A stretch of 64,000 nucleotides of DNA from Gordonia jacobaea (GTDB taxonomy: Bacteria; Actinomycetota; Actinomycetes; Mycobacteriales; Mycobacteriaceae), in contig NZ_LDTZ01000013.1 in assembly GCF_001186365.1 (NCBI RefSeq), positions 434,001-498,000 on the forward strand, read 5' to 3'. The position numbers and the translations under genes were made by a program. A model generated the notes under the pieces. It was not told the DNA's origin. It saw only the letters and a program-made list of their open reading frames with translations, and searched no databases. The first letter of the stretch is position 1. Every line of letters starts with the position of its first letter. Of this stretch, positions 27,959-63,503 are shown in pieces.

Positions 27959-28011
27959 TTCAATCCAATCGTCTGTGTCGGGTATGTCAGTTTCGGACGG
28001 TACATCGCACA

Positions 28012-44300: not shown

Positions 44301-45807
44301 CAGGTGTCAGCGATACTGCGCCCGCAGCTCCGTGCGTTTGCGTGTGAACCGAGCGCAGCGCATCGTTGAGCTGTCCGTCGGGAGTGAATGCGCGTAGGCG
44401 TTCGGAGGGAGCGGTGGCGAGCGCGCGCAGGAAAGCGGCGAAATCCTCGCCGAGACGATGCGCCTTTTCGGCTTCCTCGGCGACGGTGCGAACGACGACT
44501 TCGGCGGGCCTGTCCCGACGCCTGACCTGGATCTGGATCTCGACATCGGAGACAGGACCGGATGCGAGGGCATGCAGCGAGAGTGGATGGCCGCCCATCG
44601 TCTGCCGCGAGGTGTTCGCCATGACGTTCACGCCGAGACCGAACATGCGGTACGGGCCGTCAGATGGTGCCGATGAACCCGCGTCCCTGGCCTGCGCTGC
44701 GAGAGCACGGCCGAGATCCTCACCGCGAAAACGACTGTGGGCGACGAGCGCGAACACCGCGCGTTCGGTGCGGGCGGCGAGGTCGGCGAGGTTGTCGCGC
44801 GGGTGCGCGTCTACGCGCAGCGGCAGCACACTGGTCACCATCGACGGTGTTGTGCGTGCCCTACGGTCAAGGCGCCCGGTCACGGGTAGCGCGAGAACCA
44901 GGTCGGTGCGGCGGGTGCGCACATGGGCAAACGCCGCAACCGCGGCGATCAGCAGGACGGTCGGTCGTACCCCTGCATCGCGCGCCAGCGTGCGCAACGG
45001 GTCGAGAACCTCGAGGGGAATGTCGAAGCGTGACGCGATGATCCCGCGACCGGGCACCACATCGTCGTCGAGGAGTCGCACCGGCTGCGGCCGGTCGCCC
45101 ATCCGCGCCAACCAGTAGTCGGCATCGGCGGTGAAGTCGGGACCGTCGCGATAGTCGTGCTCGGCGTCGAGCACCGGGAGCAGCCGCCAGTCCCTGGCTC
45201 GCGACGCAGTGCTGTTGCCAGAAGTCTCGGATGTCCCGGAAGCGCCAGATGCCCCGGAAACGCCGGATACGTCGTAATGCTCCTGCACCGCCTGGGTGAA
45301 GAAGCCGAGCCCCATGCCGTCGCAGACGAGGTGGTGAACCTTCACAAGCGCCAATGTCGGGTCGGGCTGGTCGATTCCGGAGTCGGTGTCGGTCCGGGCG
45401 GTGCGCAGGATCGTGCACTCGGTGAGTGGGCCGTGCGTGATGTCCATCGGCTGCGCGAGTTGTGCGGCCATCCAGTCGCGCGCTTCGGGGAGAGGTATGT
45501 CGAGGATGTCGACATCGAAGTCGGTAATGGGCAGGACCCGCTGCCGTACGTCACCGCCCTCTTCGACAAACACGGCGCGCATCGCTTCGGCCTTCTCGAG
45601 GACCGCGAGGATAGACGCCCGCAGACGTTCGACATCGGTTCGTGCGTCGACCTCGACGTAAAGTCCGGTCACGTACAGGGCTGGGTCGCCCGAGGCCTGC
45701 ATCGACAGATAGATGTCACGCTGACCGGCGAGAACGGGCAGTGTCTGATCCTGCGAACTCGCATGCTGCGAAGTCGGATGTTGGGGGCTGACATGCTGCG
45801 AGGTCAC
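32371..45807 (-). CDS. NRPS with three elongation modules and an unusual N-terminus
   Basis: A 4478-residue nonribosomal peptide synthetase. Domains, with key motif positions: C (HHLVCDG, ~157), dead E-like domain (HHxxxDG replaced by FDAALVD, ~602), C (RFLLWDGWS in place of HHxxxDG, ~1020), A1 (~1470), T (GGHS, ~1873), C (HHIATDEWS, ~2062), A2 (~2548), T (~2940), C (HHIATDEWS, ~3122), A3 (~3583), T (GGDS, ~3977), E ([10 protein letters not shown], ~4166). By-eye codes: A1 DMENLGLINK (N5-hydroxyornithine), A2 DGWVIGAVVK (no assignment), A3 DAQEGGLVDK (basic residue, Lys/Arg-like). It ends in an intact E domain with no thioesterase or reductase. The GTG start overlaps the upstream NRPS stop. 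Low-complexity repeats occur in several linkers. Confidence 0.93.
38261..38305. repeat. 15-base in-frame tandem repeat inside NRPS
   Basis: Two near-identical 15-base units (38261-38275 and 38276-38290, one base different) and a diverged third encode TVSVP repeats in an A-domain surface loop. The period is a multiple of three, so copy-number change would keep the frame. Confidence 0.8.
43751..43777. repeat. 9-base in-frame tandem repeat inside NRPS
   Basis: Three perfect copies of CCGGATGCG encode Gly-Ala-Ser repeats (read on the minus strand) in a linker of the dead E-like region. A related Gly-Ala-Ser stretch lies near 45215-45270. Confidence 0.85.
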
Positions 45808-48800
45808 TGGTTGACTCCGGATTCTGCTGGCGCCGCAAGCGAATCGAGCGCCGTGCACAGTGCAGCGGCGAGGTCGCGCACAGCGGCGTCGTCGAGGTGG
45901 TCGGGTAGATAGCTGAAAGTCGCGGCGACAACGGGACCCGACGACTCGTCACGACAGACGATGTCGATCTCGAGCGGGTAGGCGACACCGAGGGCCGGGT
46001 CGGGATCTGCGGCGAGTGCCGTCGATTCCACCGAGGGCTGCCAGGGCGAGCCCCCGCCGACGGTGAAGCGTCCGAGGTAGTTGAGCAGCACGGACGGTCG
46101 CGACATGGTGGCGAGTGCGGCCGACAACTGCGGGTTGAGGTAGCGCAGCATGCCGAATCCTGCACCGGCAGCGGGCATTGCGGTCCATGCTGTCTCAGCG
46201 TCGGCGATTGCGTCGGCGATGTCGCCGGTGGCCGATAGCCGGATCGGCGCGACGGTGGTGAACCAACCGACCGTATGCGACAGATCCGCGTCGACCCCGA
46301 ACTCATGTGCATCGCGACCATGACGTTCGGTGTCGACGATGAGGTCCGCGGTGTCGAGAGCTCGTGTTGCGGCGACACGCAACGCCCCGAGGAGCAGCGA
46401 CGTGATCCCCACACCGCGGCGGGTGGGTAGATCGGAGACGAGCGATGCCGAGGTCTCCGGAGACAACGTGACGACGTGGCGCCGCTGGTCGGCGACGGTG
46501 CCCGACGTGGCGAGCCGACCGGGCACCAGTTCGCCGCCCGGTGCCAGCACCTGCGCCCAATGGGCCGCCTCGTCGAGCAGTGCCGGGTCGGCGGCGCGTT
46601 CGGTCACGGCGGCGGCGAATGCGTGCAGGGGTGTCGGGGTCGGAATCGGTTGCGGCGCAACACCGGTGGCTGCCGTCTCCCAGAGGGTGTGGAGATCCTC
46701 GAGCAGGATGCGCCGGGAGACGCCGTCGACGGCGAGATGGTGAATGACCAGGATCAGTCGCCCCGCGATCGGATCGTCGGGTGAGCCGGTCGTCAACCAG
46801 GTCGCGCCAACCATGCGTCCTGCGCCGGGCGACAATCTGCCTGCCGCGGCGCTGGATTCGGCCGACACAGCTGCGGCGAGCGCGTCCGGATCGTCGAAGA
46901 CGGATCTGTCGAGCGTGACGATTCGCAGGACGTCGTCGACGTCGACCGATCCCGGTGGCGCGCTCTGCATGTTCCAGAGCACACCGGCGACGATCTGCAA
47001 CGAACTCCGAAGCGCCTCATGGGAATCGAGCAGTGCACGGAACATTGCGCGAAGCGTGTCGGCGTCGAGTTCCGCCGGGGTGTCGACGACGAGCGACTGG
47101 TTGAACCGGTCGATCGTGCCACCGATCTCACGGAGTCGATGGACGATCGGCAGCAGCGGAATGGGCGTCGGCGCGGTGGCCGCCGGGTCGTCCGTGCTCG
47201 TCGGCGCGGCAGACGACGTGTCGTCGATCCACTCGGCGACCGAGCCCAGTCCGGCGACCGTGCGGTGCGTGAAGACGTCCCTCGGCGTGAATCGGATGCC
47301 ACGTCGCCGTGCGCGATTGACCAAGGTCGTCGAGACGATGCTGTCGCCGCCGAGCGCGAAGAAGTCGTCGTCGACGCTCGGCGGGTCGTCGAGTCCGAGA
47401 GTGTCGGCGAAGATGTCGGCGAGCGCGGTCTCGACCGCTGTCGTCGGTGCACGACCCTCCGCGACGCCGACCTCGGGCTCGGGAAGTGCTGCGGCATCGG
47501 TCTTTCCGTTGACCGTCAGCGGGATCGAGTCGACGATCAGCACGGCCGACGGGACCTCGTGCTCAGGGAGAGCGTTGCGCAGTGCCTCGTGGAGTGAGTC
47601 GGCGTGCAGCGAATCGGAAGCGATATTGTCCGCGACGGCGTAGGCCAGGATTCGGTCGGCACCGCTCGGTCCGGGCCGGGTTAGGACTGCGGCGTCGCGC
47701 ACGCCGGGCAGACCCGCGAGGGCTGCCCGGATTTCCCCGAGTTCGATACGGAAACCACGGATCTTGACCTGTGTGTCCGCGCGCCCGAGATAGATGAGCG
47801 CACCCTGTCGGGTCTGTCGGAACAGGTCCCCGGTGCGATACAGCACCTGACCGGTGCCCGAGGGGTCGGCGACGAAACGGGTTGCATGCAGCGCCGGGCG
47901 CTGCAGGTAACCGGCGGCGACCTGGGGGCCGGCGAGGTACAGCTCACCCACGGCACCAACGGGTACCCGGCGCAGATATCCGTCGAGCAGATGGCCGGTG
48001 AAACCTGGCAGCAACGCCCCGACGTCGCTGCCCGTGGCGGTATCGATGGTCTCCTGATCGAGCACCAGATACGTTGCATGGACGGTGATTTCGGTGATGC
48101 CGTACATGTTCACCAACGTGGTCCGCGGATACCGCCGGCCGAACGATCGTAGGCGCGGCAGGTCGAGCGCCTCGCCACCGAAGATCACGTAACGCAGTGA
48201 ATCTAATGCCGACCCGGAGCCAATTGTTTCGGGGGTCTCCTGGTGCTCGGGGATCTCCTGGTGCTCGGTGTCTGCGAGATCTGCGGCGTCGAGGGCGAAG
48301 AAGGCCGACGGCGTCTGGCTGAGCACGGTCACACCCCGCTCGCCGATGAGGGCGGCGAAGTCGGCGGGCGAGCGCGTGGTGGCGTGATCGGGCAGGACGA
48401 GGTGCGCTCCGGTCGAGAGCGGACCCCACAGCTCCCACACCGAGAAATCGAATGCGTAGGAGTGGAACATCGTCCACACGTCGTTCTCGTCGACGTCGAA
48501 CAGTTCGGCCGTGGCATCGATCAATGCGGCGACGTTGCCGTGCGTGACGGTGACACCCTTGGGCTTTCCGGTCGACCCGGACGTGAAGATCACATAGGCC
48601 GGGTCAGCCGGGGTGAGTTCGGGATCGAAAACCGCTGTGTCAGAGAGGGAGTCATCTTCGCGCTGGAGGTAGTCGGCGTCGACGATGACCGTCGGCGCGG
48701 CGTCGGCGAGGGTCGACGAGATGCGTTCACTCGGGTACGCGGGATCGATCGGAACGTAGGCGGCGCCGCAGCGCAGTACTGCGATGATCGCGGCGACGAG

Positions 48801-51800
48801 GTCCGTCGAGCGTTCCAGGATCAGGGCAACCGAGTGGCCGCGTCGCACGCCGTCGCGGCGCAGGCGTGTAGCGATCGACGCGCTGAGTGCGTCGAGTTCG
48901 CGATAGGTGAGAGTGTGCGTTCCGCCGGACACGGCGGGACGGTCGGCGAAGGTGCGTGCGGTGGCGGCGAAGATGTCGACAAGGGATCGCCGAGGACGAA
49001 CGACGTCGGGTGCGGGCAGTACGGGAAGCTCGGCGGACCGGCCGAGGCGCAGCTGCGCGACGTGACTGGTCGGGGCGTCGACGAGCGTGAGGAGTATGGA
49101 TCTCACGCGCTCTGCGAGATCAGTGACGGTCGGTTCGTCGAAGAGTGCCGCGGCGTACTCCACGCGCAAGCGGATGCCCGCGGAGTCGGCGAGTTCGACG
49201 AACTCGAAGGTCAGGTCGAACTTGGCGGTTCGCGCTCGTGGGAAAACGGGTTCTGCACGCAACCCGGTGAATTCGGGGGCGATGATCGGGTCGCGGTACT
49301 GAACCATCGTCTGGAACACCGGATGTCGGCTCAGTGCTCGTTCGGGTGCGAGTGCGGTGACGATCTCGTCGAACGGCACATCCTGTGCGGCCAAGGCCGC
49401 GACGTCGGTCTCCCTGACGCGGCGCAACACCTCGAGGAGTGTCGGATCACCGGAGAGGTCGGTGCGCAGCGGCAGGGTGTTGACGAACATTCCGATCAGC
49501 GACTCGGCGGACGCCGATGACCGGCCGGCCACCGGGGTGCCGACCACGATGTCGTTGCCTGCTCCGGACGCGTTGAGCGCGAGCGCCACAGCGGCGTGCG
49601 CTGCCATGAACACGGTCGCGTCGAGTGCCCGTGCGGCAGAGCGGAGCCCGACGAGAACGTCGGCGTCGACGACCATCTCGACTTGGCCACCAACGGGATC
49701 CGGCTCGATGGGTCGGGGACGGTCGTAGGGGAGGTCGAGTTCGGCCGGTGCGTCGGCGAGTTGGTCTCGCCAATAGTCGAGTTGTCGGCGCACCAGTGAC
49801 CGGGAATCGGCGACGGTGCCCAGCCGCTCGATCTCGACAAGCGTGTGATCGGCGTACTGGAGCTGTGGTGCGGCAACCTGCGTGCCGTTGTATCCGGCGG
49901 CGAGCTCGTTGAAAAGCGTTGCTGCCGACCATTCGTCCGCGGCGATGTGATGCACCGTGAGGAGCAGCACCGCCGACGCTTCGGAGGTGCGTAGGAGGTC
50001 GGCGCGCAGGGGCAGGTCCGCTGACAACTCGAATGGGCGCCCGACGAGTGAGTCGATCGTCGCGTCGAGGTTCGCGGGTTCGATGTGGTGTTCGTCGATC
50101 AGCACCCTCGCGCCGTCGACCCCATCGATGACCTGTGCGTCGTCGACGATCCTTGTGCGGAGCGTCTCGTGGCGTTCGACGATGCCGTCGAGTGCGCGTT
50201 GCAGGCGCGCAGCGTCGACTGGCCCGTCGAGCTGAACGGCGAACGGAATCGTGTACGCGGCATCGCCGATCCCGCTCTGGAAGGCGAGTCTGCGCTGTGC
50301 GGGCGACAGCGGAATCCGTTCGGGGCGTTGCGCGGGCACGCCTGCCGAGTTGTCGGTGACGCCGGTAGTCGTGATTTCAGCGCTGTCGGCCGCGAACAGC
50401 GCCGCGAGGTCGACGAGCCGCGGGTGGGCAAAGACCTCGGCGACACCGACGACACGTCCGGTCGCCACCCGCAGCCTCGTCAGCACACGCGTCGCCGACA
50501 GGGAGTGGCCACCGAGGTCGAAGAAGTTGTCGTCGACGCTCGGCCGTGCCGCGCCCGCGGCGTCGAAGCCGAGCACGTCGGCGACGGTGTCGACGACGAG
50601 GCGCTCGAGTTCGGTGCGCGGCTCGCGTCGGGAGACCGCGCGCGGCGAGGTCGGGGCGGGAAGGGCTCGACGGTCTGTCTTGCCGCCCGGTGTGCGGGGA
50701 AGAGAGTCGAGTCGGGTCCACGTGGCAGGGATCATGGCTGCGGGCAACGTATCGGCGAGTTCGGCCGGGACGGCGTCGGGTGCCTGAGCTCCGGCAACGT
50801 AGACGTCCAGACGTGCGTGTCCGTCGTGATCCTCACCGGTTACCGCCACGGCATCGTCGACTCCGCCGAGTGCGAGGACAGCTTGTTCGACCTCACCGAG
50901 TTCGACGCGGGTGCCACGGATCTTGACCTGCGAGTCGGCACGACCGAGGAGTTGCAGTCTGCCGTCGGCAGTGATCAGACCACGATCGCCGGTGCGATAC
51001 ATCCGGTCACCGCAACCTGCCGGGTTCGCGACGAATCGCGTTGCGGTCCAGTCGGAGTGCCCGTGGTAGCCCCGCGCCAGTTGGACGCCGGTCACGTAGA
51101 CCTCGCCGGAACGGCCGGCCGACACCGGGTTCAGGTGACGGTCGAGCACGACGACACCAGCGCCCGGAACCTGCGTGCCGACGGTGATCGTGCCGACCGC
51201 GGCGGTGCGGATCGTCGCGGTGGTGACGTCCCCCGCGACCTCCGACGACCCGTACGAGTTCACGACTTCTTCTGCGGCGCCCGCGAGTTGAGCAGCAGTG
51301 CTGCCGGGAAGCGGCTCACCGGAGACAATCCACCGGCGTATCGACGCGACCGGCGCGGGACGCGCTGAGCTGTCGGGGAGCAGGTCGGCGATTGCCCTCG
51401 CCAGTGACGGCACGGCCGTGATCTGGTCGACCGCGTGACGGTCGATCAGCTCGGCGAGTGCCATCGCGTCGCGCGCGGACGCGTCGTCTGCGATGGCGAC
51501 GGTGGCGCCCGCGGCGAGTGCGCCCAGGATCTCGGTGGTGCCGTCGATGAACGCGATGGCGCTCTTGGCCAGTACGACCGATCCGTCCCACCGCTGCGCG
51601 GCCCACGCGATGCGATTCGCCAGCGCAGCAGCGGTACCCACAACACCCTTCGGTGTTCCGGTCGAACCCGACGTATAGATCAGGTAGGCGGCCGACTCTG
51701 GATGTGCCGTGTACGGGGCGAGTTCGGGCGAAGTGACCGCGTCGGCGCGAATCTCGGCGAAGCTGTGCTCGTCGAGCACGAGCGCGGGTGCGGCGTCGTC

Positions 51801-53378
51801 GAGCATGAATCGGATGCGACCGGAAGGGTAGGTCGGGTCGATCGGCGCGACGACCGCGCCGAGCCGGGCAACGGCCAGGATCGCGACCACCATGTCGATG
51901 CCACGCGGCAATGCCACTGCGACAACGGATTCGGGTCCGATTCCGCGATCTCTGAGCACGTGAGAGGTTCGTCCTGCGAGCACATCCAGCTCGCGGTACC
52001 CGACGCGTCGATCACCCGAGACGAGGGCTGTTCGTCGTGCACAGCGTTGCGCGGTATCCGAGATCTGCTGGGCCACCGGAACATACGGCAGGGGAGCTGA
52101 CGGCAGCGATGCTGACGGGAGCGATCCTGATGGCGGCGTCGTGGCCGGAGGGGTCACCGTGAGGCCACCCAGGAGCTTCTCACGCGAGTGCGCGAGCAGG
52201 GTCAGCCACGCGACGACCTCATCGAGTAGGTGCGGGTCTGCTCCGCGGCGTTCGAGCACCAGCCCGATGGAGGGGTCGTCTTCGACGAGAAGTGTTGCGG
52301 TGAAGTCGTTGTCGTCCTCGATGTGGGGCCGCACATCTCCCCGAGGGAAGCTCTCGAACACGACGAGTGACGAGATCGGGCTGCCGAGATCTACTGCCGA
52401 CATGATGTCGGCGAGCGGCACGTGGTGGCTACCGAGGAGGGCGAGTTGCTCGCGCTGCAGTCGTGTCAGCGTGTCGCCGACGGTGTCCGATGGATCGATG
52501 CGCACCCGAACCGGGATCGTGTTGATGAGCATGCCGATCATCTCGTCGACCCCGGGCACCGACGGATCCCTACCGGAGACGACCGTCGCGAATACGACGT
52601 CGTCGCAGTCGTTTCGGTCGGCGAGCACGAGTGCCCAGGCGAGCTGGATGACGGTATTCAGTGTCGCCGAGGACTGCGTCGCGACGTCACGCAGCGCCGC
52701 CGATACCTCGGCGCTGAGGTGCGCGCGTAGTGGCACGGCGGGCGTCGTCGGCTCGACGATCTCGATGAGCGTCGACGCCTCGACATCTGCGAGTGCCCCG
52801 ACCCACGGGCCGACGTCGCGGCCCCGTGAGGCAATCCAGCGTGCGTAGTCGCTGATCGGCCGTACGGGTGCGAGGGTGTCGCCCCGGTACGCGCGCACGA
52901 TCTCGCTGAACATCAGGTGCAGCGACCACCCGTCCAAAGCAACATGGTGTGCGACGACGAACAGCCAGCGAGGGCGTCCGGACTCGGTCACGAGTGTAAA
53001 GCGCAGCGGCGGAGGCGAAGTCAGTGCGATGCCGGTCGTGCGGGCGTCCGCGCGCAGGGTGTCGAGTCCGTCGTCGAGCGTGGCGATGTCGACGACGGGG
53101 AGCTGTGTCTCGACTGTGGTGTGGACGCGGGCTACGGGTTCGCCGGTCCGTCGACGTGTGTACGAGGTCCGCAATGTTGCGTGTCGAGAGGTGACGGTGG
53201 TGATCGCCTCGCGCAGGCGGTCGACGTCGATTTCATGCGTGAGGACCGTCGTGAGATCAAGGTCGGCGAGGATCAGATACGGGTCGACGTCATCGGAGCC
53301 ACGAGGGGCTGTCGATCGGTAGACGATCGCTTCCTGGAGGCCGGTGAGGGGTAGGACGTCTTCGAGCGCTGCGCTCAC
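45804..53378 (-). CDS. NRPS, two modules ending in epimerase
   Basis: A 2524-residue synthetase with layout C-A-T-C-A-T-E. Positions: C1 HHVALDGWS (~143), A1 (~564), T1 GGHS (~954), C2 HHIAADEWS (~1142), A2 (~1595), T2 GGDS (~2008), [10 protein letters not shown] (~2212) with [11 protein letters not shown] and NYLGRF. A2 reads DFWSIGMVHK, one position from the threonine code DFWNIGMVHK, so with the E domain it should add D-(allo-)Thr. A1 is atypical: the A4 segment is FIDGTTE, which puts the usual Asp235 one residue late and gives IDTTISSGDK; its substrate is unknown. The GTG start overlaps the upstream NRPS stop by four bases, with GGAGGG nine bases before it. Confidence 0.93.
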
Positions 53379-56300
53379 AGCAGGTCACCCTCCATCAGTT
53401 CGTTGAGTTCGTCGTCGTCGACCCCTGCGGTGGTTGCGGCCGCAGAGCTTGTCGGGAGCGGCTGGCCTGTCGGGTACGAGTTCTCAGCATGCGTAGCGGT
53501 TGCGTGGCTGCGTGCCACTGACGCCAGTCCCGCGACCGTGGGATGGTCGAAGATCTCCAGCGGTGTGATTTCCCAGCCGGCCGACGCCGCGGCGCTGACC
53601 ACTCGCACGGCGACGATGCTGTCGCCCCCGAGTGTGAAGAAGTTGTCGTCCGCGCCGACTGCGGGAAGCCTGAGCACCGTCGCGAACACCTCGGCGAGCG
53701 CGGTCTCGACGGGACCCGACGGCGGCCGCGACCGAGCGGCCTGCGCCGCGTAGTCGGGCGCGGGCAGTGCTCGTCGGTCGATCTTGCCGTTGGGCGTGAG
53801 GGGAAACTCGTCGAGCACGACGAGTGCCGACGGCACCATGTAGTCGGGCAGGATGTCGGCGATGTCGCTCCGCCACGAGTGGGCCAGCGCGTCGTGCTCG
53901 GTGTGGTTGTCTGCGGCCGAGTGCGTGGTCACGTAGCCGACCAGTCGCCCGTCGACGGAGGTGACCACCGCGCCTGCGACGGCCGGGAGGGAAGTGAGCG
54001 CAGCCTCGATGTCGCCGAGCTCGACTCGGAACCCGCGCACCTTGACCTGATGGTCGGTGCGGCCGAGGCAGTCGAGTCGGCCATCCGGCCGGATGCGCGC
54101 CAGGTCTCCGGTGCGATACATGCGCGCGCCGTCGGTGAACGGGTCGGCGACGAATCGGGCCGCGGTCATGCCGGGCAGGCCGCGGTAGCCGCGAGCGAGT
54201 CCGTCTCCGCTGAGATAGAGCTCGCCGACGCGCCCGGCAGGAACCGGGTGCAGCGTCGAATCCAGCACGCGGACACCCGTGTTCGCGATCGGGGTGCCGA
54301 TGGTGACGTCGGCTGCATCGTCGATCTCAGCCGTCGTCGACCAGATCGTCGTTTCGGTCGGTCCGTACATATTGCGCACCGACCGCGCGGAAGCGACGAG
54401 GTCGCGAGCGACGTCGGAGGGCAACTGCTCGCCGCCGACCAGTACGTCGACACCTGCCAGCGCGGGTCCGTGCCCCGCACCGAGGAAAGCCGACCACAAC
54501 GACGGTGTGGCCTGGATGACGTCCGGTCGATGCCGGGAGATGAGTGCCGCGAGCCGCGCCGGATCGTGAATGTCGTCGTTGTCGGCCAAGACCACACATG
54601 CTCCCGCCGAGAGCGGTACGAGTGTCTCCAGGAGTGCGATGTCGAAGGAGATCGTCGTCACCGCCAGCAGTGACCTGCCGGGTCCGAGGCCGAGTCCGCC
54701 GACCATGTGGTCGGTGAAGTTCTGCAGGGCACGGTGCGGGATCACCACGCCCTTCGGCTTGCCGGTCGACCCCGACGTGTAGATGAGGTAGGCGGCAGAG
54801 TTGTCGACCGGGTCGTCCGACATGGTCTTGATCGGCCGCCCGTGCGGATCGGAAAGGCGCCGGATCTGAACATCGCGGTCTCCGGATGCCACGACGGTGG
54901 GTTCGGTGATGGGGGGTTCGGTGATGCGGGATTCGACGACGGCGGGTTCGATGATGGCGACAGGCGCGGCGTCGGCGATGCTGGCAGCTCTGCGGTCGGC
55001 GGGAAATCCCGGATCGAGTGGGAGAAAGGCTGCGCCACTGCGCATCACGGCGACCAACGCGACGATGAGGTCGATGCCGCGGGGGAGTGCGACAGCGATG
55101 ACCGACTCGGGTGCGACTGGCCCCAGCCGTGCCACGAGTTCGTCTGCGCGACGATTGAGTTCGCCGAAATCGATCGCGTCGTCGCCGTATCGCACCGCGA
55201 TCGCATCGGGTTCGGCGGCCGCGATGCGGGCACCGAGCGGGGTCGGGTCGATCGGTGCCGTCGCGCCGGACGGGAGAACGTCGACGCGTGCCCGCCCGGT
55301 GGCCGGCGCACCGGATTCTGGCACATCGGATACGTGCTCGACGATCCGCATGGCGCCGACGGGACGTGTTGGCTCACGCAGGAATTCGCCGACGAACGCC
55401 GCGAGTGAGTCGGCGATCCGCGCGGCGTGTGCTCGGCTGTAGATGGCGGCGTCGGCGTCGAGTGTGAGTTCCAGGTCGGAGCGGTCGGACTCCGTCGAGC
55501 CGAGGTCGAGTGCGGTGATCGAGAGATCGACGACCGGACCACGACGCAGCGAGCGGACCGTTGCGGTAATTGAGTCGGCTGAGTCGGCGTCTGCCGAACC
55601 CGCGGTCCCGGAATCGAAAGTGACTGTTGAGCCGAACGGTTTGACGTTCACTGTCGGTCCCACGACACCGTCGACGTCGCGGCGTCGTGCGTCGCGGACG
55701 ATGTCCTCGCCTCGGTAACGCGCATGCGGCGCGATCCGGCGGATGCCTGCTGCGGCGTCGGCTGCGAGTTCGCCGGCGGTCGCTGCGGGGGCGACAGCGA
55801 TACGCAGTGGGGTGACGTTGACCGTTGTGCACACGACATTGGCTGTGGGAGAACCGAATCGGTTCATCATCGGGAACCCGATCACGACGTCGGCGGCACC
55901 CGTGGCGCGTGCACAGAATGCCGCGACGGCGGCTACGAGGCGATCAGGCGACATCGCGGCCCCGCCTGCGCCGCGGACCAGGGCACGAGTCGTGTGCGTA
56001 GCGGCTGCGATGCGGTGGCCACGAGGCGTGTCGCCCAAGGTCAGGGGACCAGTGACGCCCGCGAGCTCGCGGGTCCAGAATTCTGCACTCGCACCGGCAT
56101 CGGGTTCCGGCGGAAGGTCGACGACGCTCCCGAGGCGTCGGGTATCACCCGGATCCGCGTAGAGGCGACCGATGCGTCGAACGAGCAGACCGAGGCCGTA
56201 GGCGTCGATCACGATGTGGTGCGCGACGACGAGCATCGAGGTGCGCCCACCCGCGTGGAGGATCTCGACGACTGCGCACGGGCCGGATGCGGGATCTATC

Positions 56301-56593
56301 GCGATCTGGACCGCGGCCTGCGCATACACATCGATCGCGTCGGCATCGGCGCCGAGATCGCGGTCGGTGACCTCGATCGGTACGCCGAGCTCGACTGCCA
56401 CATCGCCGTCCTGCTCGGAGAACACAGATCGCAGACCGTCGGCTTCGGCGACGGTCTGGCGAACAGCGGCTGAGAGGCGACTGGCATCGGGTCGAGGTTC
56501 GAAGTCGACGAGTTGACCGATCGTGAACACATCGGGGTTAGGGGCGACTCGCTGCGCGAACCACAAGCCCTGCTGCGCCGACGTGGCGCGCAT
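53375..56593 (-). CDS. NRPS, first module (C-A-T), glycine predicted
   Basis: A 1072-residue synthetase, first gene of the NRPS operon. The C domain (about residues 1-430) has HHIVIDAYG, HHxxxD followed by Ala instead of Gly, and ARYRGEDIVRD, which resembles C domains that accept aryl groups from a carrier protein. It therefore probably attaches DHB to the first residue. The A domain (P-loop ~602) gives DILQLGMIWK, almost identical to the glycine code DILQLGLIWK. T GGDS is near 991, and a short acidic tail ([14 protein letters not shown]) may dock to the next synthetase. I chose the ATG; a TTG immediately before it is equally possible. The iron box at 56665 lies 71 bases upstream. Confidence 0.93.
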   Translation of the reverse strand: MRATSAQQGLWFAQRVAPNPDVFTIGQLVDFEPRPDASRLSAAVRQTVAEADGLRSVFSEQDGDVAVELGVPIEVTDRDLGADADAIDVYAQAAVQIAIDPASGPCAVVEILHAGGRTSMLVVAHHIVIDAYGLGLLVRRIGRLYADPGDTRRLGSVVDLPPEPDAGASAEFWTRELAGVTGPLTLGDTPRGHRIAAATHTTRALVRGAGGAAMSPDRLVAAVAAFCARATGAADVVIGFPMMNRFGSPTANVVCTTVNVTPLRIAVAPAATAGELAADAAAGIRRIAPHARYRGEDIVRDARRRDVDGVVGPTVNVKPFGSTVTFDSGTAGSADADSADSITATVRSLRRGPVVDLSITALDLGSTESDRSDLELTLDADAAIYSRAHAARIADSLAAFVGEFLREPTRPVGAMRIVEHVSDVPESGAPATGRARVDVLPSGATAPIDPTPLGARIAAAEPDAIAVRYGDDAIDFGELNRRADELVARLGPVAPESVIAVALPRGIDLIVALVAVMRSGAAFLPLDPGFPADRRAASIADAAPVAIIEPAVVESRITEPPITEPTVVASGDRDVQIRRLSDPHGRPIKTMSDDPVDNSAAYLIYTSGSTGKPKGVVIPHRALQNFTDHMVGGLGLGPGRSLLAVTTISFDIALLETLVPLSAGACVVLADNDDIHDPARLAALISRHRPDVIQATPSLWSAFLGAGHGPALAGVDVLVGGEQLPSDVARDLVASARSVRNMYGPTETTIWSTTAEIDDAADVTIGTPIANTGVRVLDSTLHPVPAGRVGELYLSGDGLARGYRGLPGMTAARFVADPFTDGARMYRTGDLARIRPDGRLDCLGRTDHQVKVRGFRVELGDIEAALTSLPAVAGAVVTSVDGRLVGYVTTHSAADNHTEHDALAHSWRSDIADILPDYMVPSALVVLDEFPLTPNGKIDRRALPAPDYAAQAARSRPPSGPVETALAEVFATVLRLPAVGADDNFFTLGGDSIVAVRVVSAAASAGWEITPLEIFDHPTVAGLASVARSHATATHAENSYPTGQPLPTSSAAATTAGVDDDELNELMEGDLL

Positions 56594-56664
56594 CAACGCC
56601 CCACTCCGGGAGTGCGTAATGCGGCGATCTCGGGCAATCGACGACAGCAGCCAACCATGAAAAG

Positions 56665-56683
56665 TTAGCCTACCCTAGCCTAA
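56665..56683. promoter_or_regulatory. IdeR/DtxR box between NRPS operon and ArCP operon
   Basis: TTAGCCTACCCTAGCCTAA matches the IdeR consensus at 15 of 19 positions. It lies in the 196-base divergent region between the first NRPS gene and the aryl carrier gene and can serve either or both promoters. Confidence 0.78.
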
Positions 56684-56737: not shown

Positions 56738-56789
56738 GAGTTCGAGCTGCGATGCTCGCAATTCACCGCATGTCACGAGAGAGGACGGC

Positions 56790-57065
56790 ATGGCCACAAC
56801 GAATACGGTACTCACCCGAGAACGGATCATCGCCGACATTGCTGGCATCCTCGGTGTTGACGAGAGTGAAATCACCGATGACACAAACGTTCTCGACGTC
56901 GGTCTCGACTCGGTTCGGCTGATGTCACTGATCGAGCGCTGGCGCGCCGCAGGTGCTCACAAGGCAGATCTGGTGAGTATGGCCGCTGACCCGGTCGTCG
57001 GCTCCTGGATTCGTGAACTCACCGCGGACAGTGTTTCCGGTGCCAACGAGGGAGGGCTCCGGTGA
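56790..57065 (+). CDS. free-standing aryl carrier protein
   Basis: A 91-residue carrier protein. It has the aryl-carrier phosphopantetheine motif LDVGLDSVRLMSLIERWR (Ser41), close to the C-terminal ArCP domain of EntB (LDYGLDSVRMM type), and an EntB-like start with R-x-x-I-x-x-D-I-A-x-x-L. It supplies the domain missing from dhbB and should be loaded with DHB by DhbE, then offered to the first C domain of the NRPS. GAGAGGA lies just before the ATG. Its stop overlaps the halogenase GTG by four bases, so the two proteins are made together. Confidence 0.88.
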   Translation: MATTNTVLTRERIIADIAGILGVDESEITDDTNVLDVGLDSVRLMSLIERWRAAGAHKADLVSMAADPVVGSWIRELTADSVSGANEGGLR

Positions 57066-58591
57066 GCGACGCCACTCGTAGCGGGCAACCGGTGAGCGAG
57101 ACCGCCGACGTCGTTGTCGTCGGCGGCGGGCCGGGAGGTTCGACGGTCGCGACACTCTTGGCGCGCAGCGGCCACCGCGTGGTGCAGTTGGAGAAGGAGT
57201 CGTTTCCCCGGTATCAGATCGGCGAATCACTGCTTCCGTCAACGATTCACGGCGTATGCCGACTCCTCGGCGTCGACGAGAAGATCAAGAACGCGGGATT
57301 CATGCACAAACGCGGTGGCAGTTTCCGCTGGGGCAAGAATCCGGTGCCGTGGAACTTCTTGTTCGCCATCTCGCCGGAGTTTGCGGGTGAGGGGTCATAC
57401 GCGTACCAGGTCGAGCGCATGAAGTTCGACCAGATCCTGCTCGAGAACGCTGCGGAGCAGGGAGTCGACGTGCGGCAGCGCAGCAGGGTCAACGGGACAA
57501 TCACCGACGAGACCGGCCGGGTCACCGGCATCCGTTACGTCGACGCCGACCGGGTTGAGCACCAGATCGACGCCAAGTTCGTCGTCGATGCGTCGGGAAA
57601 CACCACGCGGTTGTCGAAATATGCGGGCGGAGAACGGATTTACTCCGACTTCTTCCAGAACGTCGCGGTGTTCGGATACTTCGAGAACGGCAAGCGTTTC
57701 CCAGCGCCGGACAGCGGCAACATCCTGTGCGCGGCGTTCGACGAGGGGTGGATGTGGTACATCCCGCTATCGGACACGCTGACCAGTGTCGGTGCCGTGA
57801 TCTCGCGCGACAAGGCAGAGCACGTTCTCAACGCACAGGAAGAGACGCTGCTGCACTACGTCGATCGCTGCGAGATCGTGAAGGACATGCTGTCCGACGC
57901 CACCCGCGTCACCGAGGGCACCTACGGCGAGATCCGAATCCGCAAGGACTATTCGTATGCCAATACCCAGTTCTGGGGAAACGGCATGGTTCTCGTCGGC
58001 GACGCCGCGTGCTTCATCGATCCGGTGTTCTCCACCGGGGTTCATCTCGCAACGTATTCGGGTGTGCTGGCGGCGCGATCGATCAACAGTGTGTTGGCGG
58101 GTGCGATGACCGAAGAGCGCGCGTTCACCGAGTTCGAGGGTCGGTACCGTCGCGAATACGCAGTCTTCTACGAGTTCTTGTCGGCCTTCTACGACATGGA
58201 GCAGTCAGAGGACTCGTACTTCTGGAAGGCACGCAAGGTCACCAATTTCGACCGCAACGACATGACCGCATTCGTGTCGCTGGTCGCGGGTGCCTACTCC
58301 GGCGAACAGGCCCTCACCGACCCGGAACAGATCATCGAGCGCTTCTCGGCGTCGACGGCCGCCCTCACCGAGGCCGCGGAGCGAACCGGTGGCATGGACA
58401 CCGACTCGGGCCAGCGGATGGGACATCTCTTCGGTACGCAGGTCGTGCGTGACGTCATGGAGGAGATGAACGCGTTCCAGGCACGCGGGGCGGTTGGTAC
58501 CGACGGAAGCGAACCGCCACTGCTCGACGGCGGACTCGTTCCGTCGGCCGATGGACTGAGCTGGGCCGAACCGGCTCCCGCGACCGTCTGA
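57062..58591 (+). CDS. flavin-dependent halogenase
   Basis: A 509-residue FADH2-dependent halogenase. Motifs are FAD site GGGPGG (residues 21-26), FPRYQIGESLLPS typical of carrier-protein-tethered halogenases, Lys in HKRGGSFRWG (K83, the position of the lysine that relays HOCl) and W-M-W-Y-I-P at 230-235 (WxWxIP, which blocks monooxygenase behaviour). The sequence belongs with halogenases acting on carrier-bound aromatic rings. Translational coupling to the ArCP suggests that it chlorinates DHB-S-ArCP. It needs reduced flavin from a partner reductase, not evident here. An unrelated phenolic substrate or an inactive enzyme cannot be ruled out from sequence. Confidence 0.88.
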   Translation: MSDATRSGQPVSETADVVVVGGGPGGSTVATLLARSGHRVVQLEKESFPRYQIGESLLPSTIHGVCRLLGVDEKIKNAGFMHKRGGSFRWGKNPVPWNFLFAISPEFAGEGSYAYQVERMKFDQILLENAAEQGVDVRQRSRVNGTITDETGRVTGIRYVDADRVEHQIDAKFVVDASGNTTRLSKYAGGERIYSDFFQNVAVFGYFENGKRFPAPDSGNILCAAFDEGWMWYIPLSDTLTSVGAVISRDKAEHVLNAQEETLLHYVDRCEIVKDMLSDATRVTEGTYGEIRIRKDYSYANTQFWGNGMVLVGDAACFIDPVFSTGVHLATYSGVLAARSINSVLAGAMTEERAFTEFEGRYRREYAVFYEFLSAFYDMEQSEDSYFWKARKVTNFDRNDMTAFVSLVAGAYSGEQALTDPEQIIERFSASTAALTEAAERTGGMDTDSGQRMGHLFGTQVVRDVMEEMNAFQARGAVGTDGSEPPLLDGGLVPSADGLSWAEPAPATV

Positions 58592-58607: not shown

Positions 58608-59876
58608 ATGCTGACAGCGTTGGCGCTGATCCTCGGGGCGGCACTCGTCTGCGGAGCGATCGCGCGTCGACTCGGATTCCCCTCGATGGCAGGCGAATTG
58701 GTCGCCGGTGTGCTGCTCGGCCCGTCGGTTCTCGGCATGGTGGCACCCCAGGTCACGGGAGTGGTCGTCGATGCAGACGGCGCGCCGACCACGGCGATAT
58801 CCGCGGTCGGCACGCTCGCCGTGGTCTTACTCGTCGGACTTGCGGCAACCGAACTCGACGGGCCGTTCCTGCGCGGGAACGCCCGCACCATCGGCGTCGT
58901 CAGCGGAGTCTCTTTCGTGATCCCGCTCGTCGCCGGCATCGGAATCGGACTCGTGCTGCCTGCCGAGTACCTCGGTGACGGTTCGAACACAGGTGACGCC
59001 ACGAGCACAACAGAATTCGCGGTTCTGCTCGGCGTCGCGATGTCGGTCAGCGCGATACCCGTGATCGCTCGGATCCTCGGCGACCTCCACCTATTGCAGA
59101 CGAGACTCGGTCGGCTCATCCTTTCGGCGGGCACTCTCACCGACCTCGCCGCGTGGCTGGCGCTGGCTGCTGTCTCAGCCCTGGTCACCGTGGGGCTGCG
59201 CGGCTGGCACCTTCCGTTGACTCTGCTGGCAATGATCGGTTCGGTGGCCGTTGCGCTCGTCGCGCGGCCCGTGATCGGGCGTGTGCTGAGTCGGTTGGAA
59301 TCCGGTGGCCACGACGCACAGTCGGCAGCCGTGATGGTGATCGCCATGGTCGCCGGTGCTGCGGCGACCGAAGCTCTGCACCTCGAAGCCGTCCTCGGGG
59401 CGCTGCTCGCCGGGATTGCCTGTGGTCGACGTCCCGAGCGCGTCGTGGCGCCGCTGCGGTTGGTCACCACCGCGGTGCTGGCGCCGGTGTTTCTTGCGTC
59501 GGCAGGTCTACACGTCGATCTGCGAGTTCTCGCCTCTCCGGGCGTGGCGGGAGTGGCAGTCGGTGTGATCACCGTCGCCGTCGTCGCCAAACTGCTTGGC
59601 GGATACCTCGGGGCTCGCCTCGCGCGTCTGTCGAGATGGGAGTCGATGGCGGTCGGAAGCGGGCTCAACGCTCGCGGGGTCGTCGAGATCATCATTGCGA
59701 CAACAGGTTTGAGTCTCGGAGTGTTCAGCGAGGAGACCTACATGATTGTCGTCGTCATGGCGGTGGTCACGTCGGTGATGGCGGGGCCGATGGTCGCGGC
59801 CGCCGCGCGACGATGCCGGCAGGAGGCCGGTCAGTCAGATCTCGTCGGCGCCGAGAGCGCGCAGCACGGTACGTAG
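58608..59876 (+). CDS. CPA2-type cation:proton antiporter
   Basis: A 422-residue membrane protein with about 12 hydrophobic segments of the Kef/CPA2 monovalent cation:proton antiporter family. Family features are GFPSMAGELVAGVLLGPSVLG at the N-terminus, an unwound helix region AMSVSAIPVIARIL and GLNARGVVEIIIATTGLSLGV near the end. There is no nucleotide-binding C-terminal domain. It starts 16 bases after the halogenase stop and is probably in the same operon. Antiporters of this type recur in actinobacterial NRPS clusters; its role here is unknown. Its 3' end overlaps the convergent dhbC by 42 bases. Confidence 0.88.
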   Translation: MLTALALILGAALVCGAIARRLGFPSMAGELVAGVLLGPSVLGMVAPQVTGVVVDADGAPTTAISAVGTLAVVLLVGLAATELDGPFLRGNARTIGVVSGVSFVIPLVAGIGIGLVLPAEYLGDGSNTGDATSTTEFAVLLGVAMSVSAIPVIARILGDLHLLQTRLGRLILSAGTLTDLAAWLALAAVSALVTVGLRGWHLPLTLLAMIGSVAVALVARPVIGRVLSRLESGGHDAQSAAVMVIAMVAGAAATEALHLEAVLGALLAGIACGRRPERVVAPLRLVTTAVLAPVFLASAGLHVDLRVLASPGVAGVAVGVITVAVVAKLLGGYLGARLARLSRWESMAVGSGLNARGVVEIIIATTGLSLGVFSEETYMIVVVMAVVTSVMAGPMVAAAARRCRQEAGQSDLVGAESAQHGT

Positions 59877-61124
59877 CTTGGCCGTGGTCTCCGCGACTTC
59901 CGCGTCGGGATCGGAGTCGGCGACGATACCGCCACCCGCCCAGGTCGCCAGAGTTCCTGTGCGCGAGTCGATTTCCGCACACCGGATAGCGACGAGCCAC
60001 TCGCCGTCTCCTGGCGTGATCCCGTCGGCCCCGCGCAGCGCTCCCGAGCGCTCGTCAGTAGAGAGATTTCCGACGCACCAGCCGACTGCACCGCCGTAGA
60101 AACCACGGTCGCCTTCAGTCGCGAGGATGTACTCCCTGGCCGCGGCGGTCGGGGTTCCGCACACCGCAGGTGTCGGATGCACGGCGATTGCGAGATCGAG
60201 CGCCGTCGTCGACGGATCGGCGAGCTCGCCGACGATCGGCGTTCCCAGGTGCCACATCGACGACGTGCCCACGATGCTGGGCGCGTCGGGTACGTCGAGT
60301 CGCGTGCACAGCGGCGCGAGGGCGCTCCGCAGAGCATCGACGACGAAACGGTGCTCACCAAGGTCTTTGGCCGACGAGTTCAGCGTTGCTGCGCGCTCGG
60401 CGTCGACGATCGGGTCGTGATGGCGTGGAGTGGATCCGGCGAGCGGATGAGCGCTCACCTGACGACCGCGCCGTCGTATGAGTACCTCGGGGCTCGCGCC
60501 GACGAGATGCCGCCCGTGGTGGGCATCACCCGCGGGAGTGAGCTCCGTGCGGAAGATTCCCGAGTGCGGGTTCAGTGCGGCGAGGGCGGCCATGAACGAC
60601 TCCGGTGTCAGCCTCGGGCTGGTGTCCAACAACAGCTTTCGTGCCAGCACCACCTTGGCCAGCGGATTGGTCGAGTCCGCGAGCACTGCCACCGCTGCAG
60701 CGACCCTGTCACGGTGTTCCTCGCGGAGCGGTTCTGCGGCGACCACACGGGCCTCGGCGACCGGGCCTGGTGCGTTGGTCGAGCCAACTGCGTTCGGGAC
60801 GGGGATGTTCGGCACGGGAATGTTCGCGACGGCTGCGGCCCGAGAGCTCGTCGGCACGTCGAAGCGGATGTGTGCGGGCGCGGTCAGCGCGCTCGGTGCC
60901 TCGGTGTCGAATGCCAAAGCGCCGACAATCGCTGAGTGCTCGCCGCTCGCGAGTGACTCGGCTGCGCGTGCGGGATCATTGAACGAGGCGACAGCACCAC
61001 TCGCAGAACAGCGGTAGTCGAGTCCGTAAAGCTCGAAATGATCGGCAGGCGTGGTTGATCCGTCGACGCGGGCGGGCTGAGCGTCGGGATCATCCACGCG
61101 CCCTGTCGAGGTCGAAAGAGTCAT
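59835..61124 (-). CDS. dhbC: isochorismate synthase
   Basis: A 429-residue chorismate-utilising enzyme (EntC/DhbC) that makes isochorismate, the first step of DHB. Motifs are AKVVLARKLLLD, HLVGASPEVLIRR, HPLAGSTPR, KDLGEHRFVVDALR, HPTPAVCGTPT and FYGGAVGWC. An IPVP repeat (residues ~98-110) sits in a loop. The ATG at 61124 is selected by GAGGAGG nine bases upstream. It should be transcribed leftward from the iron-box region at 61229. A salicylate synthase (MbtI) is less likely because dhbA, dhbB and dhbE are all present. Confidence 0.92.
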   Translation of the reverse strand: MTLSTSTGRVDDPDAQPARVDGSTTPADHFELYGLDYRCSASGAVASFNDPARAAESLASGEHSAIVGALAFDTEAPSALTAPAHIRFDVPTSSRAAAVANIPVPNIPVPNAVGSTNAPGPVAEARVVAAEPLREEHRDRVAAAVAVLADSTNPLAKVVLARKLLLDTSPRLTPESFMAALAALNPHSGIFRTELTPAGDAHHGRHLVGASPEVLIRRRGRQVSAHPLAGSTPRHHDPIVDAERAATLNSSAKDLGEHRFVVDALRSALAPLCTRLDVPDAPSIVGTSSMWHLGTPIVGELADPSTTALDLAIAVHPTPAVCGTPTAAAREYILATEGDRGFYGGAVGWCVGNLSTDERSGALRGADGITPGDGEWLVAIRCAEIDSRTGTLATWAGGGIVADSDPDAEVAETTAKLRTVLRALGADEI

Positions 61125-61228
61125 GATGCCGGTCGTCCTCCTCGTTCGATGCGGATTCGGCGTGCGCTGACGTGTGCTGATGGGTGCGGGTCCGGCCTCG
61201 CGGGGGGTACCTGAACCCGACCTAAGGA

Positions 61229-61247
61229 TTAGGTTAGACTTACCTAG
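61229..61247. promoter_or_regulatory. IdeR/DtxR box between dhbC and ornithine monooxygenase
   Basis: TTAGGTTAGACTTACCTAG matches the consensus at 16 of 19 positions, the strongest of the four boxes. It lies in the 175-base divergent region and should repress both dhbC and the monooxygenase operon when iron is plentiful. Confidence 0.88.
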
Positions 61248-61299
61248 TCTTGCGTGCGGCGGTGGCCCACGGAAATCACGACGATCTAGGGAGTGGCGC

Positions 61300-62613
61300 G
61301 TGTGTAGTAAGCGGAACTCCGAACTCGATATCGCTGGCATCGGATTCGGACCGTCGAACTTGGCTTTGGCCATCGCGGTCGAGGAGCACAACGACAACAG
61401 CACGGCACGCGATGGTGAGATCCAGGCACGGTTCTTCGAGAAGAAGTCCCAGTTCGGGTGGCACCCCGGCATGCTCCTTCCCGGGGCGACGATGCAGGTG
61501 TCGTTCCTCAAAGATCTGGTGACGCAACGTAATACGTCGAGTTCGTACTCGTTCTTGAGCTACCTCGCCGAGCATGACCGGTTGGGCCACTTCATCAACC
61601 GTCAGGACTTCTTCCCGCTGCGTGTCGAATTCCACGACTATCTCCGGTGGGCGGCCGAACGCGTGTCGGTGCCGGTCGACTACGGCTCCGAGATCAGCTC
61701 GGTCACGTTCACCGACGGCGCATTCGACATCACCTCGGCGTCTGGCGAGAGCGTGCGGTCGCGCAATCTCGTGCTCGGCGGAGGGCTGCGGGCGAAGCTT
61801 CCGGCGGGTGTTGTCGCCGGCCGACGCGTCTTCCACAACCATCACGTGCTGCCCAACCTGGCCAAGCTACCGCCACTGACGCATCACCGGTTCGCCGTGA
61901 TCGGCGCCGGTCAGAGCGCTGCAGAGGTTGCGGCTTTCCTGCATGAGACGACTGGCGCCGAGGTGCACGCCGTTTTCTCCAAGTTCGGCTACACGCCGGC
62001 CGACGACAGCCCCTATGCCAACCGCATCTTCGACGCCGAGGCCGTCGACGAGTACTTCTCGGCCGAACCGGCGTGGCGCGACCGTCTGCTCCAGTACCAC
62101 CGCAGCACGAATTACTCGGCTGTCGATCCGGTACTGATCCAGGACCTCTACGGACGCGAGTACACCGAGCGCGTATCGGGCAATCGCCGCCTCTTCGTAC
62201 ACGGCGCCACCGAGGTCACCGACCTCGACGAGGCCGACGACGTCGCACGCCTGCGCATCGCGCATCGCACAACGGGCGAGGTAATCGATCTCGACTGCGA
62301 CGCCGTCGTATTCGCAACCGGATTCGAGCCGACCCCTGTCGCGGACATGCTCGGCGATCTCGCTGCCCACTGTGCGGCCGATCAACACGGCCGACCCGTA
62401 CTCGACCGTGCGTACCGACTGCAGACCTCCCCGGAGATCACGGGGCAGATCTTTGTACAGGGCAACTCAGAACACACACACGGACTCACGTCGACGCTAC
62501 TGTCGAACGTGGCCATCCGATCGGGGGAGATCCTCGACGCCGTCGTGGGTCGCGGATCGAATCAACCGATGCCGGCGGCCGTACCCGTTGGCCATAGCGC
62601 TTCTGGCGCTTGA
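61300..62613 (+). CDS. L-ornithine N5-monooxygenase (SidA/PvdA type)
   Basis: A 437-residue flavoprotein that hydroxylates the side-chain amine of ornithine with NADPH and O2, providing the hydroxamate building block. Motifs are the FAD site GIGFGPSNLALA, NADPH site GAGQSAAEVA, and DAVVFATGFEPTP. The run NRQDFFPLRVEFHDYLRWAA is also typical. A lysine-specific IucD-like member is the alternative, but the hydroxyornithine-type code DMENLGLINK in the NRPS favours ornithine. GTG at 61300 follows AGGGAG by six bases. It is followed by the siderophore-interacting protein gene. Confidence 0.92.
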   Translation: MCSKRNSELDIAGIGFGPSNLALAIAVEEHNDNSTARDGEIQARFFEKKSQFGWHPGMLLPGATMQVSFLKDLVTQRNTSSSYSFLSYLAEHDRLGHFINRQDFFPLRVEFHDYLRWAAERVSVPVDYGSEISSVTFTDGAFDITSASGESVRSRNLVLGGGLRAKLPAGVVAGRRVFHNHHVLPNLAKLPPLTHHRFAVIGAGQSAAEVAAFLHETTGAEVHAVFSKFGYTPADDSPYANRIFDAEAVDEYFSAEPAWRDRLLQYHRSTNYSAVDPVLIQDLYGREYTERVSGNRRLFVHGATEVTDLDEADDVARLRIAHRTTGEVIDLDCDAVVFATGFEPTPVADMLGDLAAHCAADQHGRPVLDRAYRLQTSPEITGQIFVQGNSEHTHGLTSTLLSNVAIRSGEILDAVVGRGSNQPMPAAVPVGHSASGA

Positions 62614-62633
62614 GTTTTCGAGAGGTGAGCAAC

Positions 62634-63503
62634 GTGACCGGCATCGATGCCGTGCAGGGGCAGGATATTAGGCCTCACGCGACCGAGATCAAGTTGACCA
62701 TGTACGACCTGCTGCCGCGCACGGTCGAGGTTGTCGAGACCATCGACTTGAGTCCGGACATGCGTCGAGTGCGGTTCTCCATCAGCGCACCGGAGAGCTT
62801 CATCGTGGTGCACATGGCACCCGACGACCACATCAAGCTGTTCTTCCCGGATCCCGAAAGTGGCGAGATAGTCATGCCCGGCGTCGGCGCCGAAGGTATG
62901 CGGCTGCCGACCGAGGGCAAGTTCCCGATCTATCGCGACTACACCATTCGGGCCTTCGACCGTGAGAGCGGCGTCCTCGACATCGATTTCGTGCTGCACG
63001 ATCACGGCGTCGCCGGAAAATGGGCGGGAGGCGCGGTTGCGGGCGATCGACTCGGAATGCTCGGTCCGCGCGGCTCCCACATCTATCCGACCGGCTACGA
63101 CTGGTACCTGCTCGGTGCCGACGACACCGCGCTACCCGCTCTCGCGCGCTGGCTGGAAGAGCTACCCGACGACAAGCAGGTCATCGCCTTCGCCGAGGTC
63201 ACCGGACCCGAGACGGAGATCGACCTTCCTCAGCGCCCGAACGCCCGGGTGCACTTCGTCCACCGGGGCGCCGATCAGTCGGGCAGGGGCACGAACCTCC
63301 TGCGCGCGGTGGAGGAGTTAGACCTCCCCGAAGGCAACTTCTACAGCTGGTTCGCCGGAGAAGCGTTGTCGCTCAAGCCGATTCGACGCCATCTGCGACG
63401 CGAGCTCGGTCGGCCGAAGGACTGCGTCAAGGTCGACGGGTACTGGCGCACCGGAACCGTCAACCTCGACCACCACGTCGAGGACGACGAAACGTCGGAA
63501 TAA
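62634..63503 (+). CDS. siderophore-interacting protein (FAD ferric reductase)
   Basis: A protein of about 289 residues of the ViuB/YqjH siderophore-interacting family, which reduces ferric siderophore inside the cell to release iron. The flavin-binding RDYTIRAFD is at about residue 102, VLHDHGVAGKWAG at about 124 and the family-diagnostic SWFAGEALSLKPIRRHLR at about 238. The GTG at 62634 is preferred because AGAGG lies eight bases upstream; a TTG overlapping the monooxygenase stop (62610) is an alternative start. It is the last gene of the operon that begins with the ornithine monooxygenase. Confidence 0.92.
   Translation: MTGIDAVQGQDIRPHATEIKLTMYDLLPRTVEVVETIDLSPDMRRVRFSISAPESFIVVHMAPDDHIKLFFPDPESGEIVMPGVGAEGMRLPTEGKFPIYRDYTIRAFDRESGVLDIDFVLHDHGVAGKWAGGAVAGDRLGMLGPRGSHIYPTGYDWYLLGADDTALPALARWLEELPDDKQVIAFAEVTGPETEIDLPQRPNARVHFVHRGADQSGRGTNLLRAVEELDLPEGNFYSWFAGEALSLKPIRRHLRRELGRPKDCVKVDGYWRTGTVNLDHHVEDDETSE

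Follow-up and report, generated by a model that had tools for sequence, protein, structure and literature searches.

A free-standing aryl carrier protein and a CndH-like flavin halogenase in a DHB siderophore cluster of Gordonia jacobaea: a predicted route to a chlorinated catechol peptide

Flavin halogenases, in which the GxGxxG FAD site, an active-site lysine and the WxWxIP motif have established roles, act on carrier-bound substrates if they are of the CndH/SgcC3 type. The substrate of CndH (chondrochloren halogenase, PDB 3e1t) is reportedly a tyrosine-derived unit and not DHB; RadH, by its PDB label, is said to act on free substrate. CndH is classed as NRPS-dependent (PMC6864650), and a reference title cited in the same paper describes chlorination of a carrier-bound phenol by SgcC3 of the enediyne C-1027.

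Chlorodactyloferrin is described as a product of Dactylosporangium fulvum, encoded by a hybrid cluster joined to the pyridomycin genes (DafA-L), and as composed of 4-chloro-DHB, Gly, Arg, Orn, N-hydroxy-N-acetyl-Orn, Orn, Ser and cyclo-N-hydroxy-Orn; its two NRPSs have four and three A domains respectively, it was no longer formed after disruption of dafA, and the cluster is reported there as unresponsive to iron chelation (PMC10683483). Chlorinated DHB groups are also present in the siderophores chlorocatechelins A and B of Streptomyces (Kishimoto 2014, via PMC9609785). No chlorinated siderophore from Gordonia was found in the open-access literature, subscription journals lying mostly outside the search.

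The window considered here is a stretch of 64 kb from Gordonia jacobaea, positions 434001-498000 of its contig. Its plus strand contains the gene of a free-standing aryl carrier protein (ArCP; 56790..57065, 91 aa, ATG start, attachment motif GLDSVR; Pfam PP-binding, E 1.2e-08) and that of a FAD-dependent, CndH-like halogenase (57062..58591, 509 aa, GTG start; Pfam Trp_halogenase, E 3.4e-70); the coordinates of both ORFs were checked and are exact, and the four-base overlap of the original prediction was found in the shared GTGA. The EntB aryl carrier domain was the top PDB match of the carrier (E 5.4e-08), and EntE-EntB fusions were matched also; the phosphopantetheine serine stands in a GLDS motif, as in EntB-type ArCPs, and the nearest likeness is to ArCPs. 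The window carrier is a separate small protein, whereas that of EntB is fused to the isochorismatase. The isochorismatase of the cluster (EntB-like; 28748..29428, minus strand, 226 aa) gave the Isochorismatase domain only in the domain search, without an ArCP domain, and a genome-wide search with the carrier gave no second carrier match at E<=0.001. Both findings suggest that the free ArCP is likely to be the DHB carrier of the whole pathway, replacing the domain missing from EntB.

Upstream of the carrier-halogenase pair are located three NRPS genes, divergent from it; an MFS exporter (31061..32491, minus strand; MFS_1, E 1.5e-33; the ORF start overlaps NRPS3 and the ORF is probably too long); an EntE-like DHB-AMP ligase (29452..31029, plus strand; best family TIGR02275, 596.1 bits, under the cut-off of 723.55); the EntB-like isochorismatase; an EntA-like 2,3-dihydro-DHB dehydrogenase (28012..28917, minus strand, true start near 28752; top NCBIfam match of that name, 262.3 bits, under the cut-off of 312); and a periplasmic-type iron-siderophore binding protein (26987..28015, minus strand; Peripla_BP_2, E 4.9e-24; best NCBIfam match, enterobactin-binding protein, below cut-off). 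Downstream follow a CPA2-family cation/proton antiporter-like protein (58608..59876, plus strand, 422 aa; Na_H_Exchanger, E 8.1e-46); an EntC/DhbC-like isochorismate synthase (59835..61511, minus strand; Chorismate_bind; top NCBIfam DhbC, 299.8 bits, under the cut-off of 486); an ornithine/lysine-type N-monooxygenase (61174..62613, plus strand; Lys_Orn_oxgnase, E 4.6e-94); and a siderophore-interacting (SIP-family) reductase (62610..63503, plus strand; SIP and FAD_binding_9). The cluster contains DHB biosynthesis, DHB-AMP ligase, ArCP and NRPS, several best-family scores being below the NCBIfam cut-offs. A salicylate starter instead of DHB was rejected: relatives of EntA, EntB and EntC are present, and the salicylate synthase model gave only 62.4 bits. 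An MbtH gene was not recognised in the 64-kb window by a loose motif search.

The IdeR-like pattern (three mismatches allowed) gave 8 matches in the window against a shuffled mean of 0.91. Seven of them fall on three sites in divergent promoter regions between cluster genes: 29433..29451, EntB/EntE interval, 1 mismatch; 61229..61247, EntC/N-monooxygenase interval, 1 mismatch; 56660..56683, NRPS1/ArCP interval, 3 mismatches, the weakest of the three; the remaining match, at 20301, is outside the cluster. The earlier description of an IdeR-boxed DHB siderophore locus was thereby borne out. The true start of EntC is probably near 61122-61220, because the called ORF runs over the IdeR-like box; that of the N-monooxygenase is probably downstream of the box 61229-61247. 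A palindrome, TGGTAAGCCAATGCTTACCA, was noted at 56716-56738 upstream of ArCP; it is not IdeR-like and is a possible second operator.

The domain search gave six A domains in total for the three NRPSs; their codes were read by alignment to a GrsA segment. NRPS1 (53375..56596, minus strand) is C-A-T, with an A1 code for Gly (DILQLGMIW), and would be likely to take DHB from the carrier. NRPS2 (45804..53378, minus strand) is C-A-T-C-A-T-E-like; its A3 code (DFWSIGMVH) points to Thr and its A2 code (IDTTISSGD) was matched to no substrate, this code being without Asp235 and having a faint likeness to beta-alanine codes. NRPS3 (32371..45858, minus strand) opens with two C domains, the second lacking HHxxxD, and an E-like degenerate stretch between them (residues about 1-1330), and continues A-T-C-A-T-C-A-T-E-like: A4 (DM-NLGLIN, third letter alignment-dependent) reads as hydroxyornithine, A5 (DGWVIGAVV) was matched to no substrate, and A6 (DAWEGGLVD) is hydroxyornithine-like. 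R. rhodnii and R. triatomae likewise gave two C-like matches at this NRPS3 position. No thioesterase was found at NRPS3. The A6 domain is probably specific for N-hydroxyornithine, because its code is nearly equal to the last A code (DAWEGGFVD) of the chlorodactyloferrin-type locus of genome G189, discussed below. The predicted product, in the presumed order of modules, is (chloro)DHB-Gly-X-Thr-hOrn-Y-hOrn, whose single catechol and two hydroxamates would together offer six donor atoms. In the related DHB clusters of R. rhodnii, R. triatomae and Nocardia altamirensis some positions carry a Ser-like code.

Genome G189 belongs to the halogenase clade and contains a pyridomycin-like set (AMP ligase, NRPS, PKS, and NRPS with KR and thioesterase), followed by binding protein, ArCP, halogenase and two NRPS ORFs, one with four A domains and one with three; the first code of this NRPS pair is glycine-like and the sixth serine-like. 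It is taken to be the chlorodactyloferrin locus or a close copy, because gene layout, A-domain numbers and the first and sixth codes match those published. Its halogenase (presumed DafH) is about 71-72% identical to that of the window and has an ArCP gene directly upstream; the two fall in the same clade, a link to the known cluster that depends on G189 being the published locus. The chlorodactyloferrin cluster shares with the window the DHB genes, the halogenase, Gly in first position, two N-hydroxyornithine ligands and the lack of a terminal thioesterase. It differs in having two NRPSs with 7 A domains against three with 6, in having Arg, Orn, Orn and Ser in place of Thr and the positions without prediction, and in its reported indifference to iron chelation, against the IdeR-like boxes of the window cluster. 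Chlorocatechelins, compared by description, are built on a short scaffold of mirubactin type that bears two catechols and an acylguanidine (via PMC9609785). They had been proposed as the precedent and remain one for chlorinated DHB, but chlorodactyloferrin (PMC10683483; halogenase about 71% identical) is the closer. The count of six A domains was likewise correct and the peptide may be new, as had been suggested, but a differing NRPS set does not make a new kind of siderophore; the chlorinated-DHB class is already known from other actinobacteria.

The halogenase contains GGGPGG (residues 21-26), FPRYQIGESL, Lys83 and WMWYIP (230-235), all as originally reported. In an alignment of 63 rows (four partial or duplicate and three distant rows removed beforehand) Lys83 is K in 63/63, and W, W, Y, I and P of WMWYIP are invariant in 63/63. 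The PDB ranking was: CndH (3e1t) 577.7 bits, near full length; 8zop (halogenase) 240.4; CmlS 238; ChlB4 158; PltA 157; RadH 138; PltM 50; tryptophan halogenase structures 28-38 bits, partial alignments. A free-tryptophan halogenase (PrnA/RebH type) was rejected on these last values against 577.7 for CndH, the best solved relative, and the assignment of the window enzyme to the side of CndH, far from tryptophan halogenases, is supported. The bit score alone does not prove tethering, because RadH, said to use free substrate, scores 138 bits, near the carrier-dependent PltA (157).

The phylogenetic placement that had been proposed as a check was approached by a quick tree of 67 rows (four duplicate or partial rows omitted, CndH and CmlS added, no free-tryptophan halogenase among the rows). 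The window halogenase is within a 26-row clade (SH-aLRT 99) of 12 Gordonia, 2 Rhodococcus, 1 Nocardia and 11 Micromonosporaceae; CndH is its sister (support 88, long branch), CmlS being the only other named row. The closest named relative is that of G. sputi NBRC 100414 (98%). In Micromonosporaceae a halogenase match at E<=1e-110 was found in 44 of 354 genomes, 11 of them at 69-73% identity and the others no higher than 59%. The halogenase gene on the C-1027 plasmid of S. globisporus, which we take by strain to be that of SgcC3, is 54.3% identical; SgcC3, like the window enzyme as read here, is a halogenase for a carrier-bound phenol, but its setting is an enediyne cluster with beta-tyrosine on a PCP, unlike the DHB cluster of the window. 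Fifteen residues are specific to the halogenase clade in the 63-row alignment, e.g. Ser87 and Thr325, which all 26 clade rows share and which 36 of the 37 others replace by Thr and Ser.

The carrier gene is directly upstream of the halogenase in 24/26 clade genomes (12/12 Gordonia, 1/1 Nocardia, 11/11 Micromonosporaceae); no carrier gene was found beside the halogenase in the remaining two, R. rhodnii and R. triatomae, and in the latter the carrier is at the DHB cluster and the halogenase on another contig. Of the clade Micromonosporaceae, 9/11 have a DHB-AMP ligase gene on the contig of the halogenase, at a distance of 36-37 kb, and 2/11 have it on another contig. A search of 59 Gordonia genomes (carrier counted at E<=1e-15) gave the carrier in 24, of which 12 also have the halogenase, always at the same place, adjacent to the carrier in 12/12 (aligned parts 0-54 bases apart) and with intact frame in 12/12. 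At the 12 halogenase-free carrier loci (17-30 kb inspected each) neither a halogenase nor a CPA2 match was found at E<=1e-3, and the GLDSxR site is kept in all 12; the carrier has EntE/EntB beside it in 5 (G031, G077, G019, G007, G069), stands between the exporter and EntC/N-monooxygenase in 3 (G035, G004, G010) and has SIP and an NRPS domain close by in 1 (G012); no partner was recognised in the other 3 (G026, G033, G020). The order exporter-ArCP-EntC-monooxygenase of G035, G004 and G010 is that of the window minus halogenase and antiporter. The special coupling of carrier to halogenase supposed at the outset was given up, the carrier being found beside DHB genes in some of the 12/24 carrier-bearing genomes without halogenase. 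As the carrier occurs at matching Gordonia loci without it, the halogenase looks like an optional addition beside a pre-existing carrier. In the complete Gordonia genome G036 (G036:C1:4967409-4973724, L113) EntA/B/E, exporter, ArCP, halogenase and CPA2 are all kept; the interval from exporter to ArCP gave no NRPS match, and the best NRPS1 relative, 38%, is about 930 kb away.

The reading preferred, to which a probability of about 0.74 is given, is that the halogenase chlorinates DHB, most likely in carrier-tethered form, and that the product is a peptide capped by chloro-DHB and containing two predicted N-hydroxyornithines. According to this scheme the genes around the pair would provide the starter unit of an iron-regulated NRPS siderophore: EntC, EntB and EntA would make 2,3-DHB; EntE would activate it and load it on the free ArCP; the halogenase, with reduced FAD (a guess would be that the SIP-family reductase of the cluster supplies reduced flavin), would introduce presumably chlorine into the ring of ArCP-held DHB, most likely at C4; and the first condensation domain, of NRPS1, would join (chloro-)DHB to glycine, the six-module line then adding Thr and the two predicted N-hydroxyornithines. 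We infer strongly that DHB is chlorinated, and less strongly that the carrier holds it. The EntB-like ArCP, the DHB genes, the CndH relation and the related 4-chloro-DHB product make carrier-bound DHB the most plausible substrate, as had been predicted. Tethering is suggested by the kinship with CndH, by the carrier gene immediately preceding the halogenase in 24/26 clade genomes and by the behaviour of the enzyme class; position 4 is suggested because chlorodactyloferrin, the related product, carries 4-chloro-DHB.

Chlorination of free DHB, followed by loading of chloro-DHB by the DHB-AMP ligase with the carrier a mere neighbour, is an unlikely course, though it is the one proposed for DafH, which would halogenate DHB before loading (PMC10683483), and it agrees with the 12/24 carrier-bearing Gordonia genomes that have no halogenase; the NRPS-dependent class of CndH, the nearest solved relative (PMC6864650), argues against it, as does the carrier directly upstream in all clade genomes other than the two Rhodococcus. 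Quite improbable is the modification of another peptide residue or of the finished siderophore, e.g. of an aromatic residue activated by A2 or A5: these two codes were matched to no substrate, and many halogenase relatives at <=60% belong to NRPS clusters in which no DHB gene was matched, but an aromatic residue is predicted by 0/4 assignable codes (Gly, Thr, hOrn, hOrn-like; A2 and A5 outside the count), the halogenase is paired with the ArCP and not with an NRPS module, and the chlorine of the related known product is on DHB (PMC10683483). A relic enzyme, or a flavin monooxygenase that does not halogenate, is hardly credible, for although the superfamily includes monooxygenases and G036 retains the gene without a local NRPS, Lys83 and W-x-W-Y-I-P are invariant throughout the alignment and the frame is intact in every halogenase-bearing Gordonia genome.

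If chlorination of carrier-held DHB is the correct reading, catechol siderophore chlorination would be a widespread modular add-on (carrier in 24/59 Gordonia, halogenase in 12 of those), and Gordonia with and without halogenase would form natural pairs for the effect of chlorine on iron binding, catechol stability and escape from siderophore piracy. Chlorocatechol groups have a practical side as well: the siderophore part of cefiderocol is described as a chlorocatechol (PMC8945497).

The CPA2 gene was found at the locus in 10/12 halogenase-bearing Gordonia genomes against 0/12 halogenase-free carrier loci; the other two (G028, G034) have only an off-locus copy, of a sister lineage shared with the halogenase-free G033. 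In clade Micromonosporaceae a CPA2 relative (44-48%) is within about 4 kb of the cluster EntE gene in 10/11; none was found in the eleventh, G227, and Nocardia gave only a 35% match. R. rhodnii and R. triatomae have halogenase and CPA2 in one place and the DHB cluster in another; at distant loci (L027-L049) CPA2 adjoins the halogenase in 4/23 (Actinomadura madurae, two Herbidospora, S. globisporus). Fisher values for co-occurrence were 1.2e-11 (two off-locus copies counted) and 6.7e-05, both ignoring kinship. Ten off-locus copies were inspected and no halogenase was seen among the called ORFs nearby, and a 43-46% copy is present in 3/20 halogenase-negative control genomes; the subfamily, though it tracks the halogenase, is therefore not restricted to halogenase loci. 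Separate tree branches hold the copies of Gordonia/Rhodococcus, those of Micromonosporaceae and the others, so that halogenase and CPA2 may have become associated on more than one occasion. Putative Na+/H+ antiporters are described in clusters of halogenated products (ClaT, AbeT, AtmB, RebT, PMC3158105; FlH, PMC3999930); no published explanation for them was found in the open-access literature, with subscription journals mostly outside the search. It is conceivable, though on balance doubtful, that CPA2 is a dedicated halogenase partner (halide/proton/cation balance or export of the chlorinated product) and that unrelated pathways acquired the pair repeatedly, in the present cluster as an addition through which a DHB siderophore already in place became chlorinated. 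The recurrent pairing raises the testable question whether halogenating pathways need an ion transporter of their own. In a G. sputi-like genome (G079:C136:177359-178622) the CPA2 gene matches in two frames, indicating a frameshift or a sequencing error.
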